The notes under the pieces: model-generated
The model's input: the letters and a program-made list of their open reading frames with translations, nothing else
Databases searched by the model: none
Told to the model about the DNA's origin: nothing
Origin: Xanthobacter flavus
Lineage (GTDB): Bacteria; Pseudomonadota; Alphaproteobacteria; Rhizobiales; Xanthobacteraceae
Assembly: GCF_017875275.1 (NCBI RefSeq)
Contig: NZ_JAGGML010000001.1
Span: forward strand, 1,240,001 to 1,304,000
Direction: 5' to 3'
Length of the DNA stretch: 64,000 nt
Translations under genes and position numbers: made by a program
In this document: in pieces, positions 57,545 through 60,189 of the stretch
How the letters are laid out: every line of letters begins with the position of its first letter
Numbering within the stretch: position 1 is the first letter of the stretch

Positions 57545-57613
57545 GTCATTGACGTTGCCCCTCCTGGCTAATCCAGTTTGAAGTTCGTTCTGGCCCAATG
57601 AGAGGACCAGAAC

Positions 57614-57640
57614 ATGAGGCGCAGCCGCTTCACCGAGGAG
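57614..57640 (+). pseudogene. IS3 orfA, 5' fragment
   Basis: ATG at 57614 encodes MRRSRFTEE, the conserved start of this OrfA type, which normally continues QIIGILKEHEAG. The continuation appears only at 58976, so orfA is split between codons 9 and 10 by the IS110-family insertion. Confidence 0.85.
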
Positions 57641-57732
57641 ATGGGGTATTCGGTCCTGATCTCTTGAGCCGTTTGCGGCGTTCGGCGGCGAAGAGGACGA
57701 TCGGGGCCTGAACCCAGCGCCGGGAGGTCCCC

Positions 57733-58755
57733 ATGGTGTACGTCGGCCTTGATGTCTCTTTGAACTCCGTAGCCGTCTGTGTCATCGACCGGGAAGGTCA
57801 AATCCTGAAGGAGGCGAGCGTGGCGTCGGAGGCGTCCGCCATCTCGCAGTGTCTCCAGCCTTGGCGGGATCGGATTGCGAAGATTGGGCTTGAGGCTGGG
57901 CCGATGTCGGAATGGCTGACTGCGGGTTTGGCGGAGCTTGGTTTTCCCGCCATCAGCCTGGAGGCGCGGCAGGTGAAGGCGGCGTTGTCGGCAATGCCCG
58001 TCAAGACCGATCGGAACGACGCGCGCGGCATTGCCCAGGTGGTCAGGGCTGGTTGGTACAAGGTCGTGCACGTGAAGAGCATCGGCAGCCAGCACGCGCG
58101 AACGTTGGTGGCGGCGCGCAAGCACCTGATCCGCTCCATTGCCGCGTCGGAGCAGACACTTCGCGGATTGCTCCGTCCCTTCGGCTTGAAGGTCGGCATC
58201 GTGTCGCGGGCCGGATTTGCCTCTCGTGTCCGAGATCTGGTTGGCAACAACGCCATCCTGGCTGAGGTGATGGCTCCCCTATTGGCAGCCCGGGACGCAC
58301 TGATGCAGGAGTACCAGCGCCTTCATCGCCTGGTCGTCCAGGCTGTCCGGAATGATCCGGTCTGCCGCCTGTTGACGACCATGCCCGGAATCGGGCCGGT
58401 TTCCGCTCTGACGTTCAGAGCAACGATCGATGCGCCCGAGCGTTTCGCCCGCTCCCGGTCCGTCGGGGCTTATCTCGGGCTCACACCTCGGCGGTATCAA
58501 TCGGGCGAGATCGATCGGACCGGACGGATCACCAAAGTGGGCGACGGGGAGACGCGAACTGCGCTGTTCGAGGCCGCCAACGTCATCCTGCGACCGAGCA
58601 CACGCTGGTCACCGATGAAGGCCTGGGCGGTGCGCATTGCTCAGCGTCAGGGAAGTAAGCGGGCGAAGGTCGCTCTGGCTCGCAAGATGGCGGTCGTTCT
58701 TCACAGCATGTGGCGGAACGGCACGGAATTCCGATGGACTGCGGCCGCGGCGTGA
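57733..58755 (+). CDS. IS110-family transposase
   Basis: A 340-residue DEDD transposase/recombinase. The RuvC-like N-terminus has YVGLDVSLNSVAVCV (Asp), IGLEAGPMSEWL (Glu) and KTDRNDARGIAQV (Asp). The C-terminal Tnp domain has LTTMPGIGPVSALTF and YQSGEIDRTGRITKVGDG, with the candidate catalytic Ser in QSGE. It appears intact. IS110 enzymes work with a guide RNA from a noncoding end of the element. Confidence 0.92.
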   Translation: MVYVGLDVSLNSVAVCVIDREGQILKEASVASEASAISQCLQPWRDRIAKIGLEAGPMSEWLTAGLAELGFPAISLEARQVKAALSAMPVKTDRNDARGIAQVVRAGWYKVVHVKSIGSQHARTLVAARKHLIRSIAASEQTLRGLLRPFGLKVGIVSRAGFASRVRDLVGNNAILAEVMAPLLAARDALMQEYQRLHRLVVQAVRNDPVCRLLTTMPGIGPVSALTFRATIDAPERFARSRSVGAYLGLTPRRYQSGEIDRTGRITKVGDGETRTALFEAANVILRPSTRWSPMKAWAVRIAQRQGSKRAKVALARKMAVVLHSMWRNGTEFRWTAAAA

Positions 58756-58959
58756 TCGACCCGGCTGTGGTTCCCTGAACGCCCGTCGCGGGGCGCGGGA
58801 TGATTGAGTTCGCATGATCTGTCGTCGCAGCCGCTGACGCGGCCGAGCACGCCGAAGAGCTTGAACCGGTCATTCCATCGAACACCATCATGTGGCGATC
58901 CTCGACCACGGACAGAAGCAAAGAACCCGCGACGTGCCATCATCGGGGTTGACGACACC
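58756..58959 (+). ncRNA. Candidate IS1111-type guide (seek/bridge) RNA region
   Basis: The noncoding stretch between the transposase stop and the right subterminal repeat is where IS1111-group elements encode their guide RNA. Within it, 58939-58947 (ATCATCGGG) is identical to the right target flank 58979-58987. Also, 58899-58904 (TCCTCG) is complementary to CGAGGA in the left target flank (57634-57639). The RNA's boundaries and fold cannot be defined by eye. Confidence 0.45.
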
Positions 58960-58975
58960 GGACCGAATACAGAAG

Positions 58976-59215
58976 CAGATCATCGGGATCCTGAAGGAGC
59001 ACGAGGCCGGGGTGCCGGTCTCGGACCTGTGTCGCAAGCACGGGGTCAGCGACGCCAGCATCTACAAGCGGAAGGCGCGTTTCGGCGGGATGGACGTATC
59101 GGAGGCCAAGCGGCTGCGGGCGCTCGAGGATGAGAGCGCCAAGCTCAAGCGCATGCTCGCCGACGCCATGCTGGACAACGTCGCGCTGAAGGATCTCCTG
59201 GGAAAGAAGTGGTGA
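58976..59215 (+). pseudogene. IS3 orfA, 3' fragment (disrupted)
   Basis: This encodes QIIGILKEHEAGVPVSDLC and onward to LLGKKW, with the helix-turn-helix GVSDASIYKRKARFGG and a C-terminal leucine-rich helix. An open frame extends left to 58892 inside the IS110 element's right end, but those residues are foreign. With the first 9 codons the intact OrfA would be 88 residues, the normal size. It overlaps orfB by 7 nt in the -1 frame. Confidence 0.85.
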
Positions 59216-60135
59216 CGTCCGCTGCCGAGCGCAGGGCTGTCGCCCACCTCATGGAAGCCCATGGGATGAGCGAACGGCGGGCGTGTAAAGCCACCGGCTT
59301 CTGCCGCATGACCATGAGATACAGAGCCACGCGCGGGAATGACGCCTCGCGTGAGCGCATGAAGGCCATCGCCCGGGAGCGACGGCGGTTTGGCTACCGC
59401 CGTCTCCACGTCCTGCTCAGGCGGGAGGGCTTCCGGGTCAACCACAAGCGGCTGTTCCGGCTCTATCGTGAGGAACGGCTGATGGTCCGCCAGCGCGGCG
59501 GTCGCAAGCGGGCCATCGGAACGCGGGCGCCGATGATGATCCCGCTGCGACCGAACGAGCGCTGGTCACTCGACTTCGTCGCCGACCAGATGACCGATGG
59601 CCGGCGCTTCCGGATGCTGGCCATCGTGGACGACTGCACTCGCGAGTGCCTGGCGCTCGTGGCGGACACGTCGCTGTCCGGGGTCAGGGTCGCTCGCGAA
59701 CTCGACAGGCTTCTGGCAGAGCGCGGCCGGCCCAAGATGATCGTCAGCGATAATGGCAGCGAGTTCACCTCCAATGCCATTCTGGCCTGGACCGACGCGG
59801 CCCGGGTCGAATGGCACTACATCGCGCCCGGCAAGCCGATGCAGAATGGCTTCATCGAGAGCTTCAACGGCCGCCTGCGGGACGAGCTGTTGAACGAGAC
59901 GCTGTTCTCCAGCCTGTCTCAGGCCAGAGCCGCTCTCGGCCGGTGGCAGCTCGACTACAACACCGCCCGGCCGCACTCGAAGCTCGGATGGCAGACGCCA
60001 AGCGCCTTCGCCTCAACGTTCCACCCGCGGCGGGATCAGACGCTCCGCAACATGAACGGCTCCGCGTCTGCTCCCGCCGCTCCACACGCCCGACAGGGCA
60101 AATCCAACCGCCAGAACGAACTCACAGCTGGATAG
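59209..60135 (+). CDS. IS3-family transposase OrfB (DDE integrase domain)
   Basis: A 308-residue open frame with the rve integrase core: [16 protein letters not shown] (first Asp), [15 protein letters not shown] (second Asp) and [20 protein letters not shown] (Glu), the DD(35)E triad. The N-terminal HTH_21 region is [13 protein letters not shown]. It lies in the -1 frame of orfA, and GGGAAAGAAG at the overlap could serve frameshifting. OrfB is intact, but the functional OrfAB fusion is lost because orfA is split. Confidence 0.9.
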
Positions 60136-60189
60136 AAGTTGGGGGCAACGTCACAGTCCACGCAATTGGAGGAGACTGGTGAGCGTTTT

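Follow-up and report, generated by a model that had tools for sequence, protein, structure and literature searches.

A predicted seekRNA-guided IS1111-group element inserted at conserved orfA codons of IS3-family elements in Xanthobacter flavus

Guidance of insertion by a seekRNA has been demonstrated for the IS1111 elements ISEc11, ISKpn4, ISPa11 and ISPst6 (PMC11187229). As described in that source, these elements consist of a transposase gene followed by a long noncoding region, they carry subterminal repeats with 7-bp and 3-bp extensions, they insert without target duplication, and the guide that matches the top strand precedes the guide that matches the bottom strand. For these elements the reported target is an attC site, a REP sequence or a further short site. 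The same source describes elements directed at other transposons: IS4321 and IS5075, of the IS1111 family, target the ends of Tn21-family elements (cited in PMC11187229), and ISEc21, of the IS110 group, targets certain IS3-family transposases at the codons that surround the second D of DDE (PMC11187229). In IS621, which also belongs to the IS110 group, a bridge RNA that lies within the left end guides on both DNA strands (PMC11208160).

We analysed a stretch of 64,000 nucleotides (the window, positions 1240001-1304000) from the X. flavus genome, which is assembled as a single 5.35-Mb contig, and which contains an insertion sequence nested in an IS3-family element. The insert shares with ISEc11, ISKpn4, ISPa11 and ISPst6 the gene arrangement, the repeats and extensions, the lack of target duplication and the order of the guides, and differs from them in that its seekRNA is predicted and its target is the start of IS3 orfA (compare PMC11187229). 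As with ISEc21, the target consists of conserved codons within IS3-family transposase genes, although ISEc21 uses other codons, belongs to the IS110 group, has its noncoding region upstream and carries its guides in the opposite order; as with IS4321 and IS5075, an IS1111 element is aimed at other transposons (PMC11187229). RNA guiding on both strands, predicted here, is a likeness to the IS621 bridge RNA, whereas group and RNA location differ (PMC11208160). The kind of element is already known, with ISEc21 as precedent, and no report of an IS1111 element that targets IS3 orfA was met in the literature searched, which comprises few subscription papers. Sequence comparison leads us to read the insert, with a probability of roughly 0.88, as a seekRNA-guided IS1111 element specialised on conserved IS3 orfA codons.

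The terminal inverted repeats of IS3 elements begin with TG and end with CA. The host element has perfect repeats of this form and starts 46 bases past the stop codon of guaA. Its products include an OrfA with a helix-turn-helix and an OrfB with an integrase core (PF01527, PF00665 and PF13683), and OrfB, in frame -1 with respect to OrfA, begins at 59209. IS3 insertion produces a short target duplication of 3-5 bp at the element edges. Adjacent flanks, compared by eye, match in none of the five two-ended IS3 copies of this genome (57546-57549 and 60154-60157 in the window; L070, L079, L084 and L088), and such a duplication can vanish through mutation or recombination. An empty IS3 locus beside guaA was not recovered in congeners, where the region is rearranged, and a tRNA search of the window found none.

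The preliminary description held that an IS1111-group element had split orfA of this IS3 element, and our analysis agrees with that account. Reading of orfA breaks off after MRRSRFTEE and resumes with the CAG at 58976, which encodes the Q of QIIGILKEHEAG; the 79 codons past the insert and the 9 before it restore, as had been proposed, a product of 88 residues, and uninterrupted genes of 88 codons occur in congeners. The dinucleotide AG at 57639-57640 and 58974-58975 is common to the insert end and the target, so that the boundary first proposed is correct within 1-2 bases. Hosts with a GAGGAACAG site (L090 and L071) narrow this further: there the element's AG stands at the left junction and the target's AA is retained at the right, which makes the assigned cut correct within one base.

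The perfect 11-bp subterminal repeats and the IS110-type transposase reported earlier were both recovered, and the repeats follow the IS1111 rule of a 7-bp left and a 3-bp right extension. The transposase matches PF01548 and PF02371 above their cut-offs and NCBIfam NF033542 with 250.7 bits (cut-off 140), its GLTPRRYQSG agrees with the motif GL-P----S(t)G, and its C-terminal part is related to IS621 (PDB 8wt6, E 3.8e-14) and ISCro4 (PDB 9t56, E 3.1e-15). As expected of IS1111 elements, the transposase gene is followed by a long noncoding region (218 nt), and all eight copies in this genome use one target in one orientation with no target duplication. The assignment of an intact DEDD-type transposase is based on domains and motif, and the repeats, the noncoding region and the use of one target place the insert in the IS1111 group. 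The features are listed in Table 1.

Table 1. Features of the interrupted IS3 element and of its insert, in window coordinates.
Feature	Position	Strand	Evidence or remark
Host IS3-family element, interrupted	57550-60153	+	12-bp perfect inverted ends; OrfA part and OrfB match IS3 families
IS3 terminal inverted repeats, TGACGTTGCCCC / GGGGCAACGTCA	57550-57561 / 60142-60153		Form TG...CA
orfA codons 1-9 (MRRSRFTEE), ahead of insert	57614-57640	+	Read directly; start matches uninterrupted L122 and L150
IS1111-group insertion sequence, 1335 bp	57639-58973	+	Identical in the 7 full copies of this genome (0 of 1335 differences)
Left subterminal inverted repeat, GTATTCGGTCC	57646-57656	+	7-bp extension 57639-57645 (AGATGGG)
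Transposase, 340 aa, IS110 family	57733-58755	+	DEDD_Tnp_IS110 and Transposase_20, Pfam E 4e-16 and 9.7e-23
Right-end noncoding region with predicted seekRNA, 218 nt	58756-58973	+	Conserved (mean column identity of 81% over 11 sequences)
Predicted target-recognising seekRNA hairpin, 78 nt	58798-58875	+	RNAalifold and pair counts
Predicted right guide, ATGATCTG	58814-58821	+	Complement of target +3..+10 (CAGATCAT, top strand)
Predicted left guide, CCGAAGAGC	58852-58860	+	Same sense as left half of target plus insertion point; pairing would be with bottom strand
Possible donor guide, ACAGAAG	58912-58918	+	Equals element right end plus AG; seen by eye
Right subterminal inverted repeat, GGACCGAATAC	58960-58970	+	3-bp extension 58971-58973 (AGA)
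orfA remainder (QIIGIL... to stop)	58974-59215	+	In frame with insert codons from 58892; HTH_Tnp_1 E 1.1e-16
IS3 orfB, 308 aa, integrase core	59209-60135	+	rve and rve_3; transpos_IS3 238.8 bits (cut-off 160)

A DNA search of the genome returned seven full copies of the insert, all identical, and one right-hand part. All eight lie at the same point of orfA and in the same orientation relative to it, with right ends that lead into the orfA codons Q-I-I; eight copies at one point rule out a chance inverted repeat or chance nesting. Six of the eight hosts are of the window's IS3 type, a majority that would be expected if an IS3::IS1111 composite had arisen once and been copied as a unit, by the IS3 transposase or by segmental duplication, so that the shared insertion point reflects inheritance. 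However, pairwise comparison of the right arms of these six hosts gives 17-39 differences over 934-1180 bases (1.4-3.3%), whereas the full-length inserts do not differ at all, and the insert (0 of 1335) contrasts significantly even with the two hosts that diverge least (17 of 1177; Fisher p 2.4e-6). Furthermore, the other two hosts belong to different IS3 types, which share 65-73% identity with the rest and 73% with each other, and other genera hold additional distinct IS3 hosts. Every host differs from every other in its right arm, and thus nothing indicates that a composite moved after it had formed. Copying of a composite is barely credible on this evidence; identical inserts in diverged hosts indicate separate, recent and site-specific insertions.

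The same codons are occupied in other genomes. The closest named relatives of the insert lie on Xanthobacter autotrophicus contigs, with flanks the same as those in two same-genus genomes (G005 and G003), and the named hosts of relatives comprise Xanthobacter, Bradyrhizobium (chromosomes and plasmids), Chthonobacter, Limibaculum and an Aquamicrobium MAG. Elements that share this left end have 21 distinct left flanks, each of which encodes an OrfA N-terminus with RF-[TSG]-[ED] as its last residues. Three of the flanks are irregular: the usual start is missing from L095, L058 has SLF, and the copy at 3.99 Mb in the X. flavus genome (L087) has ATT in place of the ATG start codon of its host orfA. 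The L087 IS3 copy may already be decaying, or the rare start may be in use. On the right, 14 of the 20 distinct strings go on with Q-I-I or Q-I-L, and the other six correspond to a contig end (L030), duplicated inner ends (L029 and L160) or deviant or rearranged flanks (L037/L102, L057 and L095). At the junction of L160, which comes from a plasmid of Bradyrhizobium elkanii, the right end has its final 17 bases in tandem repeat (2820-2864). Eight insertions here and many in related genomes at the same orfA codons argue for an insertion process that is site-specific and probably RNA-guided.

In a tree of 49 transposases, from which relatives with tblastn matches spanning less than about 290 query residues were excluded, the ten guide-carrying rows fall into one clade (100/99 support) together with L096, a copy without a right end whose left flank is likewise orfA. 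A single guide-bearing clade makes one ancestral retargeting the simplest history for these sequences. An element on a contig labelled as a Mycobacterium sp. MAG (L041) is nested among alphaproteobacterial ones in the tree, a placement that perhaps reflects a binning error.

The order of nesting given in the preliminary description holds, and its further statement that the inner transposase looks intact agrees with the 340-aa reading frame. An uninterrupted homologue was to be sought, and one is present in this genome as a remnant (L122) that retains MRRSRFTEEQIIGILKEHEAG and has a stop codon further along, and a second remnant (L135) has the uninterrupted site MRRSRFTKKQIIG. Congeners carry uninterrupted 88-codon orfA genes (L140, L141, L148 and L150), and an MRASRF-type orfA is likewise uninterrupted (L147). 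The idea that 58892-58975 encodes the native OrfA N-terminus is rejected: uninterrupted copies start MRRSRFTEEQIIG or similarly, and none of the OrfA translations examined has an N-terminus resembling that stretch.

An HTH_Tnp_1 profile search of the genome yielded 18 OrfA-like matches, of which eight are the interrupted genes and two are the remnants with uninterrupted sites; among the remaining eight, none of the five inspected (L123, L132, L133, L134 and L136) has an uninterrupted site, and L137-L139 were left out. By this search, eight of the ten targeted-type orfA genes in the genome are split and two are decayed remnants. The genome contains no exact free match to the site pattern. Exact matches to this pattern occur in 51 of 292 genomes of the family, with none for the reversed control among the genomes listed. 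Occupation of every matching site does not hold as a rule beyond this genome: in congener G007, two copies of the element coexist with at least seven exact free sites, and so occupation is not automatic, or is incomplete, there. Mismatches to the guides likewise offer a weak account of why the two free sites in X. flavus were spared. At one of them (L025) pairing with the right guide is complete, and the left half differs from occupied sites by two wobble pairs only; the other (L024) has one mismatch with the right guide. Both sites are in decayed remnants.

The noncoding region at the right end of the insert contains a segment, AUGAUCUG at 58814-58821, that is the exact complement of target positions +3..+10, and all eight of its columns are invariant in the 11 aligned sequences, the window included. 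A second segment, the left guide, has one mismatch to its own site in the window copy and several at other occupied sites. Top-strand match then bottom-strand match is the order found for IS1111 seekRNAs in PMC11187229. RNAalifold predicts a single hairpin, 58798-58875, with one segment on either side; 97.6% of cells in this structure are paired, and slid versions of it collapse. Six pairs changed on both sides, compared with a shuffled mean of 2.6 (3 of 500 shuffles as high), and the covariation score is 0.180 versus 0.090 for shuffles (0 of 500 as high), values that are not strict probabilities because the sequences are related. The single-sequence folding energy of the window hairpin is ordinary (z -0.43), and an Rfam search of the right-end noncoding region gave no match at E up to 1. 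Beyond the candidate donor guide, inspection by eye also located a CCATC at 58885-58889 that is complementary to the element left end (GATGG).

To compare guides with targets, ends were assigned for 31 elements, the window element and 30 relatives chosen because their ends are visible; the ends of relatives were set by repeats with up to two mismatches, without comparison to free sites. After L030 (no right flank) and L100 (no left flank) had been dropped, the resulting 29 elements were reduced, ahead of the permutation, to 18 whose right targets differ. Ends of this kind are shared by relatives with about 45-52% protein identity, which sit at other targets. For the right half, the longest stretch of the right end that matches the complement of the element's own target averages 7.06 bases, compared with 5.13 for permuted targets (n=18; 0 of 100,000 permutations as high, p about 1e-5). 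For the left half, in the same sense, the mean is 5.72 versus 5.05 (n=18; p 4.8e-4), and the wrong-strand controls are null (n=18; p 0.23 and 0.34). Three relatives at other targets (L104, L108 and L111) have strong guide matches or a similar hairpin context.

A transposase that itself reads the site, or some structure there, with the match in the right end being incidental, would also explain a single target. The RNA is only predicted here, and in 7 of the 18 relatives the right end matches its own target over just 5 bases, which is no better than chance, as such an account would allow; these poor matches may reflect misplaced ends or interrupted pairing. However, among relatives a change of target goes with a change of guide, and does so for the correct strands only, the hairpin is conserved, and the noncoding region is required by the IS1111 elements studied in PMC11187229. 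Recognition by protein is very unlikely in view of these observations, and recognition by RNA is the reading that we prefer. Eleven of the 15 distinct two-junction site strings have intact right flanks. The right guide pairs fully at ten of these, in L161 by a wobble at a changed third codon position, and the remaining one (the L027 type) has a single mismatch at +9. Mismatches are tolerated more by the left guide than by the right.

Identical inserts at one point of diverged hosts, uninterrupted sites, a conserved hairpin and guides that follow their targets can be read from the sequences, and they are consistent with the following model. A recently active IS1111-family element would use a right-end noncoding RNA (seekRNA or bridge RNA) to steer its DEDD transposase to a sole target, the F-T-E-E-Q-I-I codons at the orfA start of IS3-family elements. 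The loop segment 58814-58821 would pair with the top strand to the right of the insertion point and the loop segment 58852-58860 with the bottom strand to the left of and across it, and insertion proceeds in one orientation without target duplication. Because the site encodes a conserved protein motif, many different IS3 elements would carry it, and one guide could reach the whole transposon class and break orfA. By analogy with the characterized elements, the transposase would be bound to a seekRNA of roughly 70-100 nt, a circular intermediate would form and the RNA would pair with both target strands. RNA expression, RNA-guided catalysis and loss of IS3 transposition are steps that we infer.

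The preliminary description also took the IS3 transposase to be disabled. With the start and first nine codons of orfA cut off, inactivation is likely, but what is left of orfA stays in frame with 37 open insert codons that run into QIIGIL in all eight X. flavus copies and include a GTG at 58892; some expression of an altered OrfA is therefore possible, and inactivation, for which the loss of codons argues, is not proven. In an extended version of this argument, the IS3 element survives: insert codons from 58892 would replace the OrfA start, the composite would be mobile and the IS1111 element would ride along. Besides the open frame, a TTGAC motif at 58949-58954, near the right end and present in 10 of the 11 aligned sequences, could act as an outward -35 box in such a composite. 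This motif may instead serve a circle-junction promoter as its -35 box, as in ISEc11 (PMC11187229). Moreover, the open stretch varies from 10 to 54 codons in the 11 sequences and is 10 in two of them, and the absence of identical host arms leaves no sign of composite movement. Survival of the IS3 element in this form is unlikely, and its disruption by a seekRNA-guided insertion remains the reading that we favour.

We tentatively suggest, at slightly less than even odds, that this IS1111 lineage is specialised as an RNA-guided hyperparasite of IS3 elements, with a guide tuned to the protein-constrained FTEEQII codons of orfA. If this is true, then a single RNA serves against many diverged IS3 elements throughout the alphaproteobacteria, in convergence with ISEc21, which hit upon other IS3 codons from within the IS110 group. 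The whole targeted IS3 class may then be silenced in this genome, and the element would constitute a natural brake on other transposons. The occupied and free sites, many and slightly different for one guide, amount to a natural replicated experiment on seekRNA or bridge RNA from which tolerance of mismatches and wobbles can be read. IS1111-group RNA-guided elements, like ISEc21, may thus be able to specialise on transposons by way of conserved coding motifs, which would bear on how mobile elements limit one another.
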